Positions 1,464-51,000 of a stretch of 64,000 bases of DNA are shown piece by piece. The position numbers and the translations under genes were made by a program. How positions within the stretch are numbered: position 1 is the first letter of the stretch; each line of letters begins with the position of its first letter. The notes under the pieces were generated by a model that saw nothing but the letters and a program-made list of their open reading frames with translations, ran no database searches and was not told the origin of the DNA. The DNA is taken from assembly GCA_001600635.1 (NCBI GenBank), contig BCKL01000027.1:323513-387512 (forward strand), written 5' to 3'. The stretch is from Leucosporidium creatinivorum. Its lineage: Eukaryota > Basidiomycota > Microbotryomycetes > Leucosporidiales > Leucosporidiaceae.

Positions 1464-3437
1464 CTACCACCCCACTCCCCTCCAAACCGCTTCCTCACTC
1501 TCCACCACGCCCCTCACCGCCTCCCTCGCCGAGCTCACACATCCTTCCAGCAGCGGTATTCCCTCGGCACACCAACTTCCACAGAACCAGACCCCCTTCT
1601 CCAGATTCTGCAAGCCACCTTGCTTCGGCTCGGCAGAGGAGGAGAGAAGGAAGCCGGGAAGGACGGAGCGAGAGGAGGAGGTGATGTAGGCTCGTTCGTA
1701 CCATGTTGAGGAGAGGATGTGGGATGGTGAGATGGGGAGGAGGGGGTTGGTTGTTTGCAGGAGGAGGAGCGGGGTGCTCGAGGAGGAAGAAGAAGGAGAG
1801 GCGAGCCGAGGATGCGTACGCGAGATGATGTGCGTCGCTTGAATCGAATGCACCGGCATCGTGCGTTCCGATCCTTGGTCCAGAGCATCGAGCTTGGCTT
1901 CGAGGGGAGAGGAGGTAGGGGCGAAGGAAGCGAGGTTGAGGTCCCGCCGGTCGAGAGGATTGGGAGGGAGCATGGACTCGTCGGTGTGGTTGACGACGAG
2001 TGTGGGGATGTAGGAGAAGGTGTTGAGGGCTTTGAGGAGGGTCTCCCGCGCAGAAGAGGAGGGGAGGAAGGAGAGGAGCGAGGCGGCTTGGTTCGCTTGG
2101 GTTGCGAAGATGAGGTGGTCGAATGGTGCTGGTTGAGGTGCAGAAGAGTCCGATAGGGTGAGCGTGATCTGAGAGCGCCCGGCCGGGGATTTGGTGCGTG
2201 CGATGGAGGTAATGGTCGACGAGAGATGGATCGCCGAAGATGGAATCGGAGCGCTCAGCCGCTGGACGACCTGTCGGACCCCGACTTCGGCGACGTAGTG
2301 GCTTGATCCGAAAGTAGAGACGATGTAGTCTGTTTTGATCAAAACGCGTCAGCTTCAGCCCAATCGCAAGCCAATGGAATTGGGACAGAAGCGTACCGAG
2401 ACACTCGGCGATCGGCATTGACCTGGCCTCCTTCCTCCCGACAGTGCTGACCGCTGCATACAGTGGTACAAGCACCTCATCCTGCATCCCTTTCCATACC
2501 CAGTGTCTCCTGCACCACTTCTCGAGCGACTCGTCGGCTACGCTGCTCAAGCCGAGCAGGTCCGCTATCCGCCTTGCCCAGTTCGGCTCGGCTCTTCTCG
2601 ATGCAGAGGGGCGGAGAAGACCAGCCGAGTCGTAGAAGAAGGCGAGGAGGAGAAGGTGGATGTAGCTGAGTGAGAGGAGAGCGAGGTGGAAGAGGTAGGC
2701 GAGGCGAGTGAACATGGAAGCCGAAGCGACGGGTGAGGGGAAGGCAAGGGGAGGGAATTTGAGGCCATTTGATCCTTCGTAGAGGTAACAAGAGGTCTGT
2801 TCTGGTCGTAATGGCGGTTCGGTGATGTCCGGTGGTGGTGAAGAAGGTGCAGCGTCGGAGTACGGAGGCGGAGGAGGCGAAGTGGGTCTCGGAGGAAGGC
2901 GAGCGAGGCGGGAGAAGGAGTAGGAAAAGTCGGATCGGCGGAGAGCAATGTCTAGATGCTTGTACAGGCAATGCACGTTGCTGTGGGAGCCTGCGAGAAG
3001 ACGAGCGAAGGTTCAGCAGGTGACCTCCGGCGCTGGCGACAGGGAGGAGCAGCAGGGTATTGCTCACCTCCGTTGATAGACCGCATAGGTGTATCCAGTC
3101 GGAACGAATATCCCTCTGCTTCTACGGAGATGGAGCTGCTGTCCATGCCCAAGGTAGCGCTCTGACGGCGAGTTGCTCGAGGTCAGCGCCCGGCGTCAAT
3201 TTGAAGATGCGCGTGAGCTCACCTTTTCGAAGAGCTCGACGTGGAAATGTAGTAGAGTACCATCCTTGGAGTACAGCTGTAGCGTTTGGAGCAGGTAGCC
3301 GGTGACGAGGCCAGCGAGACTGGGAAAAGCAGGACGCGCCTGGGTGAGCTGCTGCTGTGGGGAGGGGGTTGAAAGCGCTGCGAAGCTGTAGCTTACCCTG
3401 TACCGACTACCGCTACTCGTACCGTCTCCTTTGACAT
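1464..3437 (-). CDS. FAD-dependent amine-oxidase-like protein
   Basis: Predicted flavoprotein of the NAD/FAD-binding, amine-oxidase-like superfamily (COG2907 type); substrate unknown. Five exons: 3397-3437, 3223-3319, 3161-3068, 2397-2990 and 1464-2329, giving 563 residues with an open frame. Splicing of exons 1 and 2 creates the dinucleotide-binding motif VRVAVVGTGLAGLVTGYLL at the N-terminus, with the intron cutting inside GxGxxG. Exon 3-4 joins to PMRSINGGSHSNV. Around residues 95-170 there are proline-rich stretches and one hydrophobic segment (LAYLFHLALLSLSYIHLLLL), so it may be membrane associated. The C-terminus has the FAD-contact motif GVWFCGSWCAEGIPLLEGC. It is divergent from COQ9, 178 bp apart. 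ATG at 3437 is chosen because it directly precedes the Rossmann strand. Confidence 0.8.
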
Positions 3438-3615: not shown

Positions 3616-4541
3616 ATGGCAGCTTCTGTACCTCAACAGCTCCTACGCCTCGCCCTGCCTCTGATCCCCAAATCAGGCTTCACCGCGCACGCGCTTCAAA
3701 TCGCCTCTCTCTCGCTCCCAGCCCCTCACACGCCGCCAGCACCAGGCTACACTACTCAAACCCTCAACGGACTGTTTCCTTCGCCTCCGCCACTGCCTGC
3801 TAGTTCGGCGCGCTCGCTTACAAGGGAGGAATTGAAGGCGGATGCTCAGGGTGCGAGTCTGGAAGGAGAGCGCGTGGGACCGGCGAGGGCGCTGGTGCAG
3901 GAGTGGTTGGAGGAGGGAAGGAGGGATATGGTTGGTAGGGTCAGAGAGGTCGGGCTGAGGGGCGAGGCAGGCGTGAGGGAGGGACTGAGGCAGCGAGTAC
4001 GATACAACGAGCCGGTGCTCGGTCAATTGGTGCAGGTGAGTCGTCTCATTATCTTGATACAGATACAGGAAGCTGACCCTTTTGCTCCTGCTCTCGGAGG
4101 CTCTCGCGCTGCTCGGCGCACCAACCACCACCGCCCTCTCTTCTCCCTCCGCTCTCCTCCCCTTCCCCTCACCTGCACCACACCTCACCCACGTCGCTCG
4201 GATCGCACACGACCTCGCCAAAGTCTCAGGCGACGAGTCCCAGGGTGTAAGCTCCCCTTTCCGCGCTTCGGCGTTCCCTCGCTGATCTCTTCTCCTTCGC
4301 ACAGGCCGACTGGTACCTCACGCGCTCTCGCCTGGGCACAATTTACGGCCTCGCCGAGCTACACCTTCTCTCCCCTTCCAACGCTCTCACCTCGGCCGAG
4401 CGCGTCGAATCGACTCTCGAACTCGTCGATACGCTGTTGGAGCGGTCTCGGTCGATGCAGAAGAGTGTGGAGGGAGCGGGTCAGTTTGCTGAGTGGGTGG
4501 GGAAGAGCTGGATGGGGATGGGGAGGAGTTTGGGGCTGTAG
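3616..4541 (+). CDS. COQ9: Ubiquinone biosynthesis protein COQ9
   Basis: Lipid-binding accessory protein of mitochondrial coenzyme Q synthesis; in known systems COQ9 presents the intermediate to COQ7. Three exons, 3616-4035, 4100-4246 and 4305-4541, give 267 residues in frame. The N-terminus (MAASVPQQLLRLALPLIPK) is basic and hydrophobic, as in a mitochondrial presequence. The C-terminal COQ9 domain reads DWYLTRSRLGTIYGLAELHL, the family signature of Trp-Tyr, Arg and an aromatic/Glu helix, followed by the final amphipathic helix region. The first intron uses the acceptor at 4098-4099 after a CTGAC branch site. It is convergent with the TatD gene. Confidence 0.85.
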
Positions 4542-4778
4542 ATGGAGCTGGGGCCGCGGATGAGTTCGCCGAATGATCAACTCGGCTTTCGGCTCGACTC
4601 GGCTCGGCGCTGCCTTTAGCGAGCGGACATCCACTGGTCTCGGAGACTACAGCTCTGGCGTACAGCCCGTCTCCGCTCGCGCTCTCGCTTCGGCTGCTTC
4701 CTCGAGTCCAATCATTCTCATCACAGCTCTGCCCGAGCCGACAAGGCGCCTTCGGGTCTCCCTTTCCCACCATCAAGT

Positions 4779-6167
4779 CTACTCTGGGATCCCGAACAGC
4801 GCACAAGTATTCCTATATGTCTGCTCCGCGACCTCCTCCACGCTTACTCCCTTCAACTGACTCACGACCCACGCGACCTGCCCCGTCGAGCAAGGCTCGT
4901 TTCGGCCTTTGACGCCCTTGCCTGCTACCCAGCGCTCCTTCTTGACCATCGGAGGGATGTAGAGAGGCGCAAGATGAGAGTGGGTGGTAGAAGAGGTGAT
5001 CGTCGATAGGTGAAGGTGGGAGGCATGGGAGGGTCGGATCTGCGAAGGCAACAGGGTAAGGACGAGCCGGCGAGAGAAGAGCAAAAAGACCGGAGAGCAT
5101 ACCTCGCACCATGGGCAGTCGGACTCGATCATGATCTTGTCTAGAGGTAGCTGACGAACGCACTCGACGTTCTCGGGCGTCTTGAGCGAGCAGCTGCGAA
5201 AGGGGAGGAGGTTCAGGCTCGGCGAAGAGACGGCGCTAGGTCTCAGCTTCAGGCTCACCCACTGCAGGAGGGAGTAGGTTCAGCTGATGTTCTTCTACGC
5301 TTATCGCGATGCCTCGTGGACACTCACTTGATGCCAATGTAGAAGCCGAGCTCGATGCACTCCAGCGCCTGCTCCAAGCTCTCCGAATGCGAGTGCACGA
5401 CACCCCGCAAAGGCTTGCCGTGGGCTTTGATGATGTCGATAAAGTCCCGATGAGCGGCTCGGGAGTGGAGGAAGAGGGGAAGGTCGAAGCGTGAGGCCAG
5501 CTCGAGCTGAGGTGGGAAGTGCTTGAGCTGGACGTCCTTCGGGCAGAGGTGGAGGCGATCGTAGTCGAGTCCACACTCACCGACTGGGAGGATTAGAGAT
5601 CGTCAGTTCGTGCGGGCTGGGGAGCAAGGGAGAAAACCGAAGCTCACCAGCCAGCACTCGGCCCTCCGGACCCTTGTTCTCCTCGATGACCTTTGCCAGA
5701 GCTTCGAGATACGCATCGGGTCCACCAGGGTACTCGTCAAACTCCTTTGCTCGACACGGGTGGCATCCAGTCGTCGCGTAGAGGCCGGCTGAAGGGGGAA
5801 GGTCAGCTCATGAGCGCCGAGGACGGGCCGAAATCGTGCTCACCGTGCTCCTTCGCCAGCGCGATCACTTCCTTGCTCCCACTCAAGCAATCTCCCGTCA
5901 ACAGTTGAGTTCCTACACCGGCTGCTCGAGCTCGCTCCAGGATCTCGAGGAAGTCGTCTGCGCACGGGCGGAGAGTGAGCTTTGAAGGCGGGATGAGAGG
6001 CTGTACGAGCTCACCTGAATGAGCTTGCTTTCCATGATAGTTTCCACGGAAGACTGGGTCGCCTAGGTTGCTGCCGATGTCTGTAGAAGCAAGCACAGTG
6101 AGCTCGAATCTGACACAGCCGGCGAGCGCAACTCACCGACGAGTTTGGGAGGAGAAGGAGCAGCCAT
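4779..6167 (-). CDS. TatD-family DNase
   Basis: Metal-dependent hydrolase of the TatD family (3'-5' exonuclease/endonuclease activity is known for the family). Exons: 6137-6167, 6015-6080, 5844-5957, 5648-5788, 5328-5583, 5259-5261, 5103-5193 and 4779-5039, giving 320 residues. Motifs in order: DIGSNLGDPVF near the N-terminus, ATTGCHPC, VGECGLDYDR (metal/Glu), PLFLHSR (metal His), VVHSHSES, NGCSLKTPENVE and IMIESDCPWCEIRPSH (metal Asp). The sixth exon is only TGG. Including it supplies the Gly of the conserved NGCSLK motif, and skipping it leaves the frame open but loses that Gly. The start at 6167 precedes the first beta strand. It is divergent, 119 bp, from the LRR-like gene. Confidence 0.88.
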
Positions 6168-6286
6168 GGTTCTAGAAGCACGAGAAGCAGATCTAGCGGC
6201 CTGTAGCAGTGTACGAGTCGAGGCGAGAATGGCGAACGAATGACGAAGGAGGCGAAGGAGCGAATGTCGGTTCTTGCCTCTTGCCA

Positions 6287-7552
6287 ATGATCCCTGCTCG
6301 GCGCAACACTTCGACAGTCGATGTACCGCAACCAGAAACGATCTCTGCTCGCCTAGCTCGTCTTCGCTCGGAACAACGAGGAGCTCGGCGCCGCTTCGAC
6401 TCACCCGCGTCCATCGCCTTCACCTCGCGCCCTCGCCTTCTACCGCCTCTGGCACCGGCAGTCGAAGCTCGGCCTACAAGGAGTGCTCCAGGTCCCCCTC
6501 CTCCCCGGTCATGGATCGCTGCGGCTGCTACCGATGGCGAGAACCGACGCGGGACTTGGATCCGTGAGGCTCAAGCCAGCGGCAAGGGACCTTCACCGAC
6601 GAAGGAGCGGATGCTCGCTCCATTGGACGACTCCAAGGATACGACAAGAGCGTACTGTGCAGTCCCACGCCCGCCGAGCCTTCTGCAGTGCGTAGGGGAG
6701 GTTATCGCTTGCGATCTGAGCCTCCCGCCGGCCGCGTCGCTCCTCCTGGAGCATGTCCACCTCCTGCCGCCGCATTTGAGGTTGCGTGTTATTGATATCG
6801 CAGCCTCGAGCTGGCCGCTAGAGGAGCGAGCGATCGTGGAGCTGTTGAGGGAGGACGACGAGGGTTCGGCGGAGGGAGTAGCGGGGATTTGGACTGGACA
6901 GGAAAGTGACGAGGCTTCGGTGCTGAATGTAGACGAGTCGGAAGGCGATTGGGAGGACGAGGAGGAGCAAGGAGGCGCGTCAGCATCCTGGGACGTCAGG
7001 CTCGGCGATGGACGGGGCAGCTTCTCGCTCTTCGCAACCCTCACCTCTCTCAACTTCGCCTACTCGCCAGTCAAACTCCCCTTCCTTCGATCCCTCCTCA
7101 TCAACCAATGCAATCCCTCCAAGCCCATTCCCACCTTCCCGCACCTATCTGATCTCAATCTCGCCGCAACCCCCTCCCTTCACTTCACCGAAGCCTTCTT
7201 TGCCCTTCTCACCCTCCTCATTTCACTCCGACACCTCTCACTCGCGGGCAAGACTCTGGACCATCCGTCCTCCGTTCCCCAATCCACCTTCCTCCCTCGT
7301 CTAGCAGCAGCGACGCCCACTCTCCTCTCGGTCGACCTCTCTTACACGACCTGGCCGCCAATCCTCATCCGAGCCGTCGACTGGGATATAAAGTGGCCAA
7401 GTTTGCGGCAGCTGGGGATGAGAAGGGATCTAGTGGACTGGAAAGGGGAGGCGATTAGCGAGGTCAAGAAGGAGAAGATTCGCAAGGAGGTTTGGGCGAT
7501 GATCTCTACAGGGAGGAGGAAGCCTAGAAGATGGATAGAGGTGATTGTGTAG
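6287..7552 (+). CDS. Leucine-rich-repeat-like protein of unknown function
   Basis: Single open exon of 421 codons from ATG 6287. The upstream in-frame extension to 6209 has no ATG that I favour and would run into the TatD promoter. The N-terminus MIPARRNTSTVDVPQPETIS is followed by a basic, low-complexity region to about residue 110. A helical segment follows (LLLEHVHLLPPHLRLRVIDI) that resembles the F-box or pre-LRR region of fungal F-box proteins, then an acidic linker (about residues 195-230). The C-terminal part has irregular leucine-rich repeats (FATLTSLNFAYSPVKLPFLR, FPHLSDLNLAATPSL, LISLRHLSLAGKTL, TLLSVDLSYTTWPP). It probably acts as a protein-binding scaffold; no enzymatic motif is seen. 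Confidence 0.7.
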   Translation: MIPARRNTSTVDVPQPETISARLARLRSEQRGARRRFDSPASIAFTSRPRLLPPLAPAVEARPTRSAPGPPPPRSWIAAAATDGENRRGTWIREAQASGKGPSPTKERMLAPLDDSKDTTRAYCAVPRPPSLLQCVGEVIACDLSLPPAASLLLEHVHLLPPHLRLRVIDIAASSWPLEERAIVELLREDDEGSAEGVAGIWTGQESDEASVLNVDESEGDWEDEEEQGGASASWDVRLGDGRGSFSLFATLTSLNFAYSPVKLPFLRSLLINQCNPSKPIPTFPHLSDLNLAATPSLHFTEAFFALLTLLISLRHLSLAGKTLDHPSSVPQSTFLPRLAAATPTLLSVDLSYTTWPPILIRAVDWDIKWPSLRQLGMRRDLVDWKGEAISEVKKEKIRKEVWAMISTGRRKPRRWIEVIV

Positions 7553-7706
7553 CATATAGAGCCTTCTCACGTGCCCGGGACAAGCTCATCTATCGCCGAG
7601 ATCGTCTCGACCCCACCTGAGAGGCGAAAGTCACGGGAAGCCCTTCTCCTCCTCCTCTCTCGTCTCGTTCGCTCCCTGCTCTCACAAACTCACCGGGAAC
7701 CACAAC

Positions 7707-9103
7707 ATGACAAGCACCAGTACCTCTGAATGCCCTCTCGTACTTGTCACCGGCGCCTCAGGCTATCTCGGCTCCGAGGTCGCGCTCGAAGCTTTTCGAG
7801 CAGGCTACTCGATCCGCCTCGTCTTCCGCAAGCTTGAGCAGGTCGAACAGTGGCGGGAGAAGTATCCTGAGCATCTTTCGAGAACTCAGACGATCGTAGT
7901 ACCCGACTTCACGGTCGAGGGAGCGCTGGACGAGGCGACGAAGGGAGTGGACTTTGTGGCTGCTTGCGCGTTTCCCATGGCATTTGCGCCACAAGTGAGT
8001 GATCACTGATGTATATATAAGCCCGCAGACGAGCTAACGGCCCTTCCCGTAGGACATCAAGCGAGATTTGCTCGATCCCGCGCTGAAAGGAGTGCTCGGC
8101 GTGCTCAAAAGTGCGCAGAAGGCGGGAGTCAAGAGTGTGGTCATCACCTCCTCGTGAGTAGATGAGTCTCTTCTGCAGCTCACTGCTCCTCTGACCCAAG
8201 CCGCTTGCAGTATCGTCTCCTACATCAACTTCGCCGATTTACCGCCGAGCGACTATCTCATCACCGAGAGGGACTGGGCTCCCTACACTGTAAGCTCCCC
8301 TTTCCTCGCTCTGACTTCCTCTAGTCTCTTGGGCTGATCTCTCGTCGGACAGTATGAGCAGGTCGCTGCCTGGGCGCCGCAAGTTGTCGGTCGCCTTCCC
8401 TACTGTACGCTGTCATGCTTTGCACCGTTCAGTCGATGTTCTGCTGAGCCTATTTTTCTTCTTCACCAGTCGCCGCCAAGATGCTCACCGAGAAAGCTGC
8501 ATGGGACTACGTCGAGCGTGAGAAGCCGAACTTTACCCTGACAAGGTTGGTCCCCTCGCATTCTCCCTTGTCTCCCTCTTCTCCCGCTAAGAGCAGAGCT
8601 TGACTGCATCGCTCCTGCGCAGCATCAACCCCGCCTTCATCCTCGGCCACAACAGCGCACCTTCCCTCAGCTGGACCTCGGCGACCTCTTCTTACGGCTT
8701 CACCACGGCCCTCGTCGATGCACCAGCTTATACGCCTCATCCAGTTGGAGTGAGTAGCTCTTTCTGCCACCCTCTTTGCATCGCTGACCCTCAGCCTGCC
8801 GCACTTCGTTCGCAGCTCTTCGTTAACGTCCTGGACGTCGCCCGCTCCCACATCACCGCGTTCACCACTCCAGCAGCAGCAGGAAAACGCTACGCCCTCG
8901 TCGCCGGACAGTTCACCAACGAAGAGCTCGGCCGACTGGCTGGCGAGGCAGTCCCCGAACAGGCTCATCGCTTCCCTCCCCAACCCAAGCAAGCGCCGAA
9001 GATTGAGGCGAGGCTCAGATTTGATGCTGGGGAAGCGGAGAGGGATTTTGGGTTCACTTGTGAGGTCGTGGAATGTTTCCTGGAGAGCGTGCAGGCTAGC
9101 TGA
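7707..9103 (+). CDS. Extended SDR NAD(P)-dependent reductase
   Basis: Reductase of the extended short-chain dehydrogenase group (dihydroflavonol reductase / Gre2-like carbonyl reductases). Seven exons: 7707-7994, 8053-8153, 8211-8289, 8353-8404, 8470-8545, 8623-8749 and 8816-9103, giving 336 residues in frame. The cofactor motif VLVTGASGYLGSEVALEA lies near residue 12-30, VVITSS is the strand carrying the catalytic Ser, and exon 4-5 splicing forms the YxxxK motif as YFAAKMLTEKAAW. SINPAFILG follows, as in the family. Substrate not predictable. It is convergent with the NmrA-like gene, 155 bp between stops. Confidence 0.85.
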
Positions 9104-33300: not shown

Positions 33301-35010
33301 TACCCTCGGCCGTCCATCGACTATCCACAACTTCAACACCGCGCCGCACCGCCCGTCTCGCAGGCGACTCGACCTCCGCCCCTTCCTGCAGCTCCCCTCG
33401 CTCGACCGCCGCCCGTTCAGCCCGCGCCGCAGCGATCCAACTCTTCCTTCAACGGCCTGCATCAGGTCAGCTCGTACTCGTCTGCGCGATCGCAGTTCCC
33501 AACCGACCTCAACTTCAACGACAACGCGATCGGCCTCACGGGTCTCAAGAACCTCGGCAACACATGTTACATGAACTCGACGATCCAGTGCTTGTCGGCA
33601 ACCATCCCCTTCGCTCGCTACTTCAAGGGCGAGCCTTTCACGAAGCCCTTCGCTGAGAAGCTGAGCTGATACTGTCTCGCTTACTACAGATCGGTCTTAC
33701 AAGCGCGACATCAACTCTGTCAACCCCCTCGGCACTCGAGGAGCCCTCGCCGACGCCGTCGCCGAGCTCATCCGCGCCATCTGGGCTCAGCAGTACACCT
33801 TCCTCTCACCCGTCACCTTCCGCGAGAACATCTGTCGAGTCGCGCCTCAATTCCGAGGGTCAGATCAGCATGATGCGCAAGAGTTCCTCGGCTTCCTCCT
33901 CGATGGACTACACGAGGACCTCAACTACGTTGTCAAGAAGCCGAAGCCTATCGAGATGACCCCCGACCGGGAGCACGACCTCGAGACGCTCCCTCCGCAG
34001 ATCATGAGCGACCGCGAGTGGGAGATCTACCGCATGCGTAACGACAGCTTCGTCGTGCAGTGCTTCCAGGGACAGTTTCGCAACCAGCTCAAGTGCTTGA
34101 CTTGCGGCAAGGTGAGCTCGGTGCTTTCGTCGTCGCCGTAGTCGACGCTGACCTTCTTTACACTCCCAGACCTCAACGACCTACAACGTGAGCAAGCTAT
34201 GAATCTCTGCCTCGTTGCATCTCGCTGACTTCTCGTCGCTCGCAGACTTTCATGCCCCTCTCGATCCCCATTCCATCAGGGCGTGGGCTCACGAAGGCCA
34301 GCCTCGAGGACTGTATCAAGGCGTTCGTGCGAGAAGAGATCTTGGACAAGGATGACGCTTGGTGAGTTTCCTCTTCCTCGAAGATTCGGCGCAGCGCTGA
34401 CCGACCATCTCTTTCCAGGTTCTGTCCTCGCTGCAAGACAAATCGGAAGGCATCCAAGAGGCTCACGCTCTCTCGACTACCTCCCATCCTCGTCATCCAC
34501 CTCAAGCGCTTCTCGTTCAAAGGCCCTTTCAGCGACAAGGTTGGTTCTCGCCTCTCTGCTCCCTCGTTCGGCGCGAGCTCACCCTTGTCGCTCGTCTACC
34601 CAGATTGAGACTCAAGTCCAGTTCCCGCTCTCGGGGCTCGACCTCACTAGCTACCTCCCACCACCCCTGTTCGACAAGCGAGGTCCACCGCCGTCTTCGT
34701 CAACCAAGGGCAACGTCTACGACCTCTTCGCCGTCACCAACCACTACGGCAACCTGAGCAGCGGGCATTAGTGAGTTCGCACTGTCCGTTTCAATTTCAC
34801 TCGCGCTCTTGCTGACCTCGTCTCGTCTCGCAGTACGGCCTTTGTTCGAAGCGGACGGGAATGGCACAACATCGGCGACTCGAAGTGCACCCAGGTCGAT
34901 CCTCGAGTCGTGGAATCGGTGAGTGTAGGCGCTGCAGGTATGCGACTCGCGCTGACCCTCTGTTCGCGCAGGCCAAGTCCGCTTACATCTTGTACTATGC
35001 GCTCCGCTGA
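30392..35010 (+). CDS. Doa4/USP8-like ubiquitin carboxyl-terminal hydrolase
   Basis: Cysteine protease removing ubiquitin, by homology acting at endosomes/proteasome. ATG 30392 ([20 protein letters not shown]). Order: N-terminal helical MIT/USP8-dimer-like region, a short coiled coil ([18 protein letters not shown]), long Ser/Pro-rich linker, a rhodanese-like domain ([15 protein letters not shown] ... [15 protein letters not shown]) with no catalytic Cys loop visible, a second Ser/Pro linker, then the USP core. Cys box [18 protein letters not shown] (about 33540), [19 protein letters not shown], zinc-ribbon CLTCGK and [19 protein letters not shown], and His box [20 protein letters not shown]. 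It ends [12 protein letters not shown]. About eleven exons; an 18-nt exon (34170-34187, TSTTYN) lies inside the zinc-ribbon finger. Confidence 0.9.
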
Positions 35011-48066: not shown

Positions 48067-51000
48067 TTACCACCCACCACCAAGCTGATCTAACAATGAT
48101 GACATCTGCGCTCCTCCTCCAATCTGTGCTCCCTGATACGGCGCTTCCTGCTGACCCGGCCACCCACCCTGCACAGGCGCCGCTCCCTGCGCCGGCAGCT
48201 GGAACGACGTAGCAGGCGCCTGCACCTGGCCGAACGGGTTCCAAAACTCGAGCGCCTCGCCGTTCAGCGGCCCGCTGAGATCCTGAAAGAAGGAGAGCGA
48301 GAGGTCGTCGGCACCGCTCGTCGTGCTCGGGAATGGCCAGGGATTGTTAAAGTCGAAGGAGGAGGCGATGGGGATCTGTTCTGGAGCGAGAGGGGCGGAG
48401 GAGATGGCCGTGGGAGGTAGAGGAGGGAAGAGGGGAGGAACGCGAAGTGTTGACGTGCTGGGAATGTTGCGAGTCGGCGGAGGGGTACCTCGATGCGGCG
48501 CCGTTTGGGTATTGAGGGAGCGAGAGATGCGCTGCAGGACATCTGCGAACGTCTCCACCTCGGCCTCGTCCTCTGGGTCCATCGGTACGCCTCCCGAAGC
48601 GGCGAGGAGAGCCTGCGCTGCTCGACCGACTCGGCGAGATTCCTCGGCGCGGAAGAGGCCTGTCATGATCTTGGATCCCTGCTCCACGACAGCGCGAAGC
48701 GATTCGCTGGTGATCTCGGAGCTGCGCGAGAAGATCTCGGCGGCGAGGTTGAGGACGTCCTTCTTGGAGTCGATCTCCGAGGCGGAGGCGTCGTGGTCGA
48801 TGGACTGAAAGAGGTCATTGAAGAGGACGAGGGCGGCACCTGTGGGTGGAAGGTGTCAGCTCAGGGTCTTGTGGAGCTCAGCGAAGCAAGACTCGAGCGC
48901 ACCCATGACCTGCGAGCAAGGCTATGGTCAGCGAACTGCTCTGAAGGGCGAGCAACAGCAACATACATGAGAGTAGGTGTACCAGATATCACGAGTAGCG
49001 TCCGCGATGTTGTGAGTCGAGACCACCACGACCCTCGCGCTCTTGATGCACGCGTCCTGCGAGAGCCGAGCGAGTCAGCAAGGCGCCGAGTGGGGCGAAG
49101 GAAGCAGAAGTGCACTCACGGTGGAGAAGCGGTACTTGGCTTGAGAGTAGCCCTGTTGAAGGAGCAGAGCAAAGGTGGTGAGCGCTAGTTCTCCCGAAGA
49201 GGATAGGCGGAGAGAGGAAAGAGAAACCTACGCGAGTCGAAAACGGACGATGAAGGCGGAAGATCCTGTTGTGCAGTCCCTCGAGGGCGAAATGACGTTG
49301 GAAGCGAAGCATCGGCTGCTCAATCTCCTCGGCGCTACTTTCGAGGGTCCAGCGATCCGGCAGCGAGTCGAGGCTACGAAGGCAACCGGTGTCAGCGCTG
49401 CCTCTCCCCCACGATGTCTGCGATTGACTCACATGCTCCGATATCCTCGATCCAGCTCGAGCACGGTCTCATAGGTGACGTCCCTCGTCAACACGACGGC
49501 GTCGAAGACCTTTCGGACTTGACGAGACATGGCGATGCGCACGCGGTCGGAGGAGGAGTCGGTGAGGACGGAGTGAGGGGAAGGGTTGACGCGCCAGTCG
49601 ATTGAGCTGAGGTCGCTGTCGTTGAGGTTGAGTGGGTCATCCGTATCGACTGGAGAAACGAGGCGAGGTCAGCTCGGCGTTCATCGAGCGGGAAGGAGGA
49701 AGCGAGCATACAGTGAAACGGCGAGATGAGGTAGCTTCGGTTTTTGCTCGACGCGCCGAGCCAGTCCTGGTACACGAGCACTCCCCACAGCCTCTTGGCC
49801 GACTCCCTCTTGAGCGAGTTCTTGCCGGGCGGAAAGGCGGGGTCGTCTTGCGGGGGCATCGTTTCGGGGTTGGAGCCGAGGAGATGGAGACCGAGTACTT
49901 GAGCGAGTCGGATGGCGCCAGCTAGCCAAGTAACGAGCTGCGCCGGTTGGCCGCGGTTGGAGGAGCAGAGTTGGAGGTACTGAGTGAAGAGGACGATGGT
50001 CTACAAGTGACGAGAGGCGGTCAGGAAGGGAGCGACGGAAGAGCAATGTAAATATGCTCACCTGGATCGTTCGTATCCGGGGTACTGTCTCCCACTCGGC
50101 GAGAGTCAGTGCCCTCTGCGCCGCTGCGAACCATCGTTCGGGCAATGCTCGAAGCTGCTCCTCGGTGAAGACGTTGAGAGGGCTCGGTGCGCCTGCTTGG
50201 GTCGGATCGAGCGAGAGGGGCGAGCGAGAAGTGTGGGTACTGTCGAGAGCGACGCAGATGACCTGCGAGAGGGCGAGATGAGTTCAGCGAGCCGTCCGAG
50301 CAAGAGTCGAGAGCAAAGCACACCATGAGTAGCAGACCGATGAAGAGAGGGTCAACCTCGTCACTCCTTCCAGCATCGCATAGGTCGTGAAAGGCGTCGA
50401 GTTCGATGAGGAATCTGCGCGAAAGGCGATCAGGTCAGCTCGGCGCTGGGGAAGCTCGACCGAAACGACTCACGTTGGTGCATGAAGGTGATGGAACAGC
50501 CAAGAGACCCTCCCAAAGTAAAGGTTGACGAGATGCACGACACTCTGCCGATTCGGCAGCGCCCTGTAGATCTTTCTTAACTCCTCCCTCCTCGCCTGCT
50601 CGACCTCGGCGGGGGTGGCATCGAACTCGACATTGAGGTGCGCCTTGGAGAAGGTGTCGTGCGGTCGTTCGGCGGCGATGATGGAGGTGAGAGCCTTGGT
50701 GAGCTCCAGGGCGGGCGCTCCGAACCGAGTCTGCGAGCGAGCGCTGCTGGCGCCGGCCATTCCTCCTCCCGTCCCTCCGACCGTCAGCCCTGGTCGAGCT
50801 CCCGGCGCCTTCTTCTCCCCACCTCCTCCTCCTCCGCCCAGTCGCCCTCCGAATACTCCATTCTCGAGATTGACCGCCGCATCCTCGGTATCCGAGAACG
50901 TCTCCTCCTTCCCCTGCTCCCTCCCGACCCCTGCTCCCCCTCCTCCAGCAATGAATTTCCTATTCGGATCCCCATAGCTCGTTTCCTGCCCTCCATAAGC

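Follow-up and report, generated by a model that had tools for sequence, protein, structure and literature searches.

A probable three-nucleotide exon in the TATDN1-type TatD nuclease gene of the basidiomycete Leucosporidium creatinivorum

The trinucleotide TGG at positions 5261-5259 of the stretch of DNA analysed here is very probably a real, mainly constitutive internal exon of 3 nt in a TATDN1-type TatD nuclease gene. This stretch, called the window below, is 64,000 nt long, has a G+C content of 59.5% and forms the end of a contig of 387,512 nt (C27:323513-387512); the genome amounts to 27.7 Mb and is assembled into 63 contigs. The two introns that enclose TGG, the reading frames with and without it, the gain in homology and the score margins are observed directly in the sequence. 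An initial annotation had placed a 3-nt exon between two canonical introns, GTGAGT...CTGCAG and GTGAGC...TTCGCAG, and its coordinates proved to be exact, with the gene finder, the shuffled sequences and the homology in agreement.

The TatD gene and the glycine restored by TGG

The gene consists of eight exons (Table 1), and the same exon chain was obtained by in-silico splicing and by a self-trained gene finder. Its seven GT-AG introns measure 55 to 66 nt. The best solved relative of the 320-aa product is human TATDN1 (8efg, 2xio), to which the match is nearly full-length (8efg, residues 8-316, E 9e-75) and with which it has NGCSLKT in common; 3e2v is also matched. Both this relative and the Pfam domain TatD_DNase (PF01026, 182.7 bits) assign the gene to the TATDN1 type. 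In addition, the motif (G/A)xN, described as the mark of Class I TatD proteins (PMC10085689), is found near the N-terminus as GSN, where VDIGSNLGD is aligned to IDIGINLTD. Two more family-search matches to TatD_DNase lie elsewhere in the genome, at G000:C5:799216-801977, inside one of the sampled loci (L005). They perhaps represent a distant TatD paralogue, and are uninformative on the 3-nt exon because tblastn with the window protein gave no match in that locus at E 1 or better.

Table 1. The TatD gene of the window, with its exons and the two introns around TGG
Feature	Positions	Strand	Description	Evidence
TATDN1-type TatD DNase gene	4779..6167	-	ATG (at 6167) to stop (ending at 4779), 8 exons, 7 introns, 320 aa	in-silico splicing, PDB, Pfam, gene finder
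Exon 1	6137..6167	-		in-silico splicing, gene finder
Exon 2	6015..6080	-		in-silico splicing, gene finder
Exon 3	5844..5957	-		in-silico splicing, gene finder
Exon 4	5648..5788	-		in-silico splicing, gene finder
Exon 5	5328..5583	-	last bases ATC AA	in-silico splicing, gene finder
Intron 5	5262..5327	-	66 nt, GTGAGT...CTGCAG	
Exon 6 (very probable)	5259..5261	-	TGG	splicing, homology, gene-finder margins, shuffles
Intron 6	5194..5258	-	65 nt, GTGAGC...TTCGCAG	
Exon 7	5103..5193	-	begins C TGC TCG CTC AAG	in-silico splicing, gene finder
Exon 8	4779..5039	-	through stop TAG	in-silico splicing, gene finder

When the three nucleotides are spliced in silico between ATCAA and CTGCTC, the sequence ATC AAT GGC TGC TCG is read as INGCSLKT, and the motif NGCSLK is rebuilt in the form seen in TATDN1, as had been claimed. 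The exon is split over two codons, its T closing that of Asn (AA|T) and its GG opening that of Gly (GG|C). The initial annotation had spoken of TGG as a switchable Gly; inclusion does restore this residue, but TGG itself does not code for Gly and its T belongs to Asn. When TGG is skipped, ATC AAC TGC TCG is read as INCSLKT in a protein of 319 aa, with the frame kept, the Asn unchanged and one Gly lost. Two earlier remarks hold on this point, namely that one larger intron would keep the frame and delete the conserved Gly, and that an exon of this kind is easily missed, as its skipping leaves the frame open at the price of a single residue. Retention of intron 5, of intron 6 or of both introduces a stop at the first codon past the junction. 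Among micro-exons, taken here as those of 15 nt or less, TGG has a complete canonical intron on each side (as judged against 478 predicted introns) and restores conserved coding sequence, the Gly of NGCSLKT.

The gain in homology is evidence separate from the splice-site signals and therefore supports the TGG exon independently. In fact, all but one of the 15 PDB chains matched favour inclusion, by 1.1 to 8.7 bits. The score against 8efg is 255.2 bits with TGG and 246.6 without it, a drop of 8.6 on skipping; the corresponding values are 179.5 and 170.8 for 3e2v, which we take to be a yeast protein, and 140.9 and 133.8 for 3ipw, presumably from Entamoeba. Chains ranked under the best four gain 4.3 bits at most, and the one exception is 1j6o (90.6 bits with TGG, 90.7 without, a difference of 0.1 bit). 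The PF01026 score falls to 178.0 bits when TGG is left out, so that the gain amounts to 4.7 bits. At the position encoded through TGG, Gly is aligned in the four PDB chains shown (8efg, 2xio, 3e2v, 3ipw) and in all six bacterial TatD loci aligned; these were the only loci obtained when genome contigs were searched for the TatD gene and are usable for the Gly position only, and a search of viral contigs found no relative.

The Asn that precedes this Gly corresponds to human Asn196, according to a hand count on the TATDN1 alignment that is anchored at Asn12 and also fits Glu220 and Asp222. Asn196 has been listed among the residues of a putative third metal site of human TATDN1, and the importance of this spot stays putative because the site is empty in the crystal and no significant effect followed the mutation of Glu220 or His174 (PMC10085689). 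In a rival reading, TGG would be a regulated cassette exon, whose two isoforms, with and without Gly beside the Asn, tune the enzyme. Both forms are in frame, and regulated micro-exons are known, such as that of 20 nt in Trichoderma Xlr2, which responds to glucose (PMC11121469), and that of 3 bp in Drosophila hth, which is alternatively spliced (PMC7392893). However, the loss of a residue near a putative metal ligand would be likelier to harm the enzyme than to tune it, and the donor and acceptor signals around TGG are of at least ordinary strength; regulated use is very improbable. The switchable Gly suggested in the initial annotation thus found no support: the residue occurs in the four chains shown and in the six bacterial loci, and nothing observed here points to regulation.

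Splice signals, score margins and recognition of the exon

A semi-Markov gene finder that sets no lower limit on exon length was self-trained on the window and 20 loci of the same genome (262,020 bases). This is a sample of convenience, since 19 of the loci come from the neighbouring part of the window's contig and the remaining one surrounds a further TatD match. Its final set of predictions comprises 96 genes, 478 introns with a median of 65 nt and 385 internal exons. The TatD gene is returned with the 3-nt exon, and the next best model, to which the gene finder falls back when either flanking intron is forbidden, replaces both introns and TGG by a single intron of 134 nt; the exon is preferred by 12.87 nats. 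When positions 4501-6500 were masked during training, TGG was still chosen, with a margin of 12.49 nats, although this held-out model splits exon 8 by an extra, probably spurious intron (4861-4784). The gene finder does therefore err, and its further exon calls are to be taken as leads and not as annotations. Chance was assessed by shuffling the inside of the 134-nt block 2000 times, with dinucleotides preserved and the outer 8 and 26 nt fixed: no additional exon appeared in 1955 cases, a single one appeared in 42 (measuring at most 9 nt in 18 of them), and three cases had other structures, which were left unscored. The highest margin among the 42 is 9.1 nats, under that of the real sequence, and the signal of the TGG exon thus exceeds chance.

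The same figures bear on the alternative that 5327-5194 is one intron, that its inner splice sites arose by chance and that the protein lacks the Gly. That intron is exactly the second-best model, it leaves the frame open, its donor is good and its acceptor very strong, and its length is possible in this genome, where 31 of the 478 predicted introns (some of them perhaps wrong calls) reach 130 nt or more. Nevertheless, a single intron is worse by the two margins given above, the first of which is unmatched in all 42 one-exon shuffles, and it costs 8.6 bits against TATDN1 together with a Gly present in sequences as distant as bacterial and human ones; we consider it very unlikely.

The TGG exon, on the other hand, is bordered by introns whose signals resemble those of other introns. 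Compared with the 478 predicted introns, intron 5 lies at the 75th percentile for its donor, the 67th for its acceptor and the 37th for its branch-like site (GCTGAAC, with the A 19 nt before the intron end); the values for intron 6 are the 58th, the 99th and the 10th (CCTGAAC, with the A 20 nt before the end), and this weak branch-like site is a point against the exon. Within TGG, only the last G agrees with the common last exon base before donors. Both introns are of about the median predicted length, 363 of the 478 falling between 50 and 80 nt.

How the spliceosome defines so small an exon had been posed as the question of interest, and intron definition would be a ready answer to it, given introns of median length. 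Intron definition is regarded as a default for short introns, and under exon definition the complexes formed on a very small exon interfere sterically (PMC8378409); exon definition is not expected over 3 nt because two complexes would interfere, and with both introns near 65 nt intron definition would suffice and exon definition would be unneeded. In the mechanism proposed here, introns 5 and 6, each equipped with a full set of donor, branch-like site, pyrimidine-rich stretch and acceptor, would be recognised across the intron and spliced out in succession and not together, because two spliceosomes would hardly fit 3 nt apart at once. If intron 5 left first, the junction CAA|TGG would have no GT directly behind it, no donor would be re-formed and TGG would be committed; if intron 6 left first, TGG would already be part of exon 7. 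Either order would keep TGG, skipping would require the far donor and the far acceptor to pair directly, and near-constant inclusion is therefore expected. We infer from the DNA that TGG would be spliced in the cell in this stepwise manner and used constitutively, with its T completing the Asn codon of NGCSLK and its GG opening the Gly codon, so that the protein would be kept at full length. A similar scheme of intron definition and stepwise removal has been proposed by the authors of the work on a 1-nt exon of Arabidopsis, where a potato exon of 9 nt is cited as a case in which the second intron is removed first (PMC4674806).

Introns separated by only 3 nt are also the expected look of a stwintron, in which a splicing signal of the external intron is broken up by an internal one (PMC5639578), or of a recursive ratchet point or transient recursive exon that is later removed. 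Here, introns 5 and 6 are each complete in donor, branch-like site and acceptor, so that no signal is interrupted and the pair does not belong to the stwintrons; the recursive variant is opposed by the junction CAA|TGG, which re-forms no donor after the removal of intron 5. Such arrangements have a nearly negligible probability for the TatD gene.

As for the origin of the pair, the tandem duplication of one intron might be suspected from the lengths of 66 and 65 nt and from CTGAACCT, common to both near the 3' end. However, the alignment score of the two introns (8.5) is equalled or exceeded by 35% of the 36,856 pairs formed by the 272 predicted introns of 58-74 nt, and they are not recognisably duplicates. 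A mobile intron, or introner element, is present as many similar intron copies across a genome. The 134-nt block matches once in the 27.7 Mb, namely itself, which speaks against an introner, although the absence of a match does not prove rarity. Duplication and introner insertion both seem exceedingly unlikely, and the simplest remaining origin would be that one of the introns was gained independently at a distance of 3 nt from the other.

Other very small exons in the genome

Among the 385 predicted internal exons in the 262 kb sampled, eight do not exceed 10 nt and 22 do not exceed 20 nt. Seven of the eight were compared with the best model lacking the exon, and the homology score rises with the exon for six of the eight. 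For example, a magnesium-dependent phosphatase 1-like gene in L005 (minus strand, about 2146-3197) has predicted exons of 24, 9 and 13 nt. The 9-nt exon encodes Thr-His-Val and raises the Pfam score from 186.5 to 200.9 bits, and WVDTHV is also read in the two solved phosphatase chains that match the gene. Another example is a predicted transporter gene of 19 exons in L017 (plus strand, about 5991-8920) with two exons of 8 nt, for which the Pfam score is 108 bits, compared with 91.2 and 76.9 when the one or the other is omitted. In a further transporter (L020), an exon of 5 nt brings the score to 106.9 bits, against 99.0 without it, the latter being the value of the larger of the two pieces into which the alternative splits the gene, the only one scanned.

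The window itself holds two more predictions of this class. A fungal-specific transcription-factor gene (about 48067-50760) has a predicted 7-nt exon, GTCATGG, on the minus strand at 48903-48909, and its match to a paralogue in L006 reaches 358 bits with the exon and 332 without it; the domain of this gene, like the short GT-AG introns, points to a fungal genome. A possible 5-nt exon, GCCAA, lies on the plus strand at 34972-34976, in the 3' portion of a ubiquitin hydrolase-like gene, where no more than 1.1 bits are gained in Pfam (120 vs. 118.9) and the margin is weak (9.5 and 1.0 nats). Elsewhere, a predicted 4-nt exon in L015 has margins of 2.8 and 9.8 nats, the piece scanned giving no Pfam match, and a 12-nt exon in L016 is accompanied by a GST match of 20.2 bits, below the cut-off of 25, which disappears without the exon.

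The TatD exon is, to judge from these predictions, probably not a singular case in the genome, and the homology support for other very small exons speaks in its favour. It is an appreciable but somewhat doubtful possibility that a great many exons of at most 10 nt have gone unnoticed in the genome, several of them in conserved motifs. Straight scaling of eight per 262 kb would give roughly 850 in 27.7 Mb, a figure that concerns predictions from a sample taken mostly from one contig. Such a population would be upheld by introns mostly near 65 nt, read through intron definition alone; if it is real, exon sizes would form a continuum with the 3-nt exon at its lower end, and the genome would be a natural system for testing the minimal spacing of two introns. 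Short, fairly uniform introns together with several likely exons not exceeding 10 nt offer a simple setting for the question of the lower exon limit, that is, the smallest exon compatible with stepwise intron definition. The approach has a practical side as well, since a homology-guided reading of DNA finds such exons, whereas a gene finder that imposes a minimum on exon length silently drops the residue because the frame survives.

Comparison with known ultra-small exons

The TGG exon is tiny and otherwise ordinary, and exons so small have already been published in plants and fungi. Its size had been called near the minimum possible, which is fair for 3 nt and yet not the limit: exons of 1 nt have been described in Arabidopsis APC11 (PMC4674806), plant VPS55 (PMC8831610) and Fusarium CYP621A (PMC12940212), and exons of 2-5 bp are cited for Arabidopsis, Drosophila and humans (PMC12940212). 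Exons of this order may escape read aligners, as has been described for one of 1 nt (PMC8831610). Before the APC11 exon, the smallest known were 3 nt for alternatively spliced exons and 6 nt for constitutive ones (PMC4674806). Among the literature matches listed, none joins TatD with micro-exons, and none reports a fungal exon of 3 nt in the titles and abstract beginnings covered, which include few subscription papers. If confirmed in RNA, TGG would extend the known set of exons not longer than 3 nt by a fungal one of 3 nt.

The 1-nt exon of Arabidopsis APC11, like the TatD exon, is far under the size of exon definition; it belongs to a plant and was tested there with GFP-fusion constructs (PMC4674806). 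The micro-exon of Drosophila homothorax (hth) is also of 3 nt and frame-neutral, but belongs to an animal gene and is alternatively spliced from another exon, of which the TatD exon gives no sign (PMC7392893). Among fungi, the micro-exon of Trichoderma Xlr2 is larger (20 nt), is regulated by glucose and alters a DNA-binding domain (PMC11121469). The P450 genes of Phanerochaete chrysosporium resemble the TatD gene in that small introns are frequent and coding exons can be very small, in this case micro-exons of 2-10 aa in another gene family, the shortest exon being of 6 bp (PMC1184071). Finally, the P450 gene CYP621A of Fusarium also presents a fungal ultra-small exon between two introns, easily missed in annotation, which completes the Gly codon of a conserved motif (PKG in that protein). 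Its exon is of 1 nt, not 3, its skipping shifts the frame whereas the TatD exon is frame-neutral, and it is backed by orthologues and RNA reads, while the TatD exon is predicted from DNA (PMC12940212).
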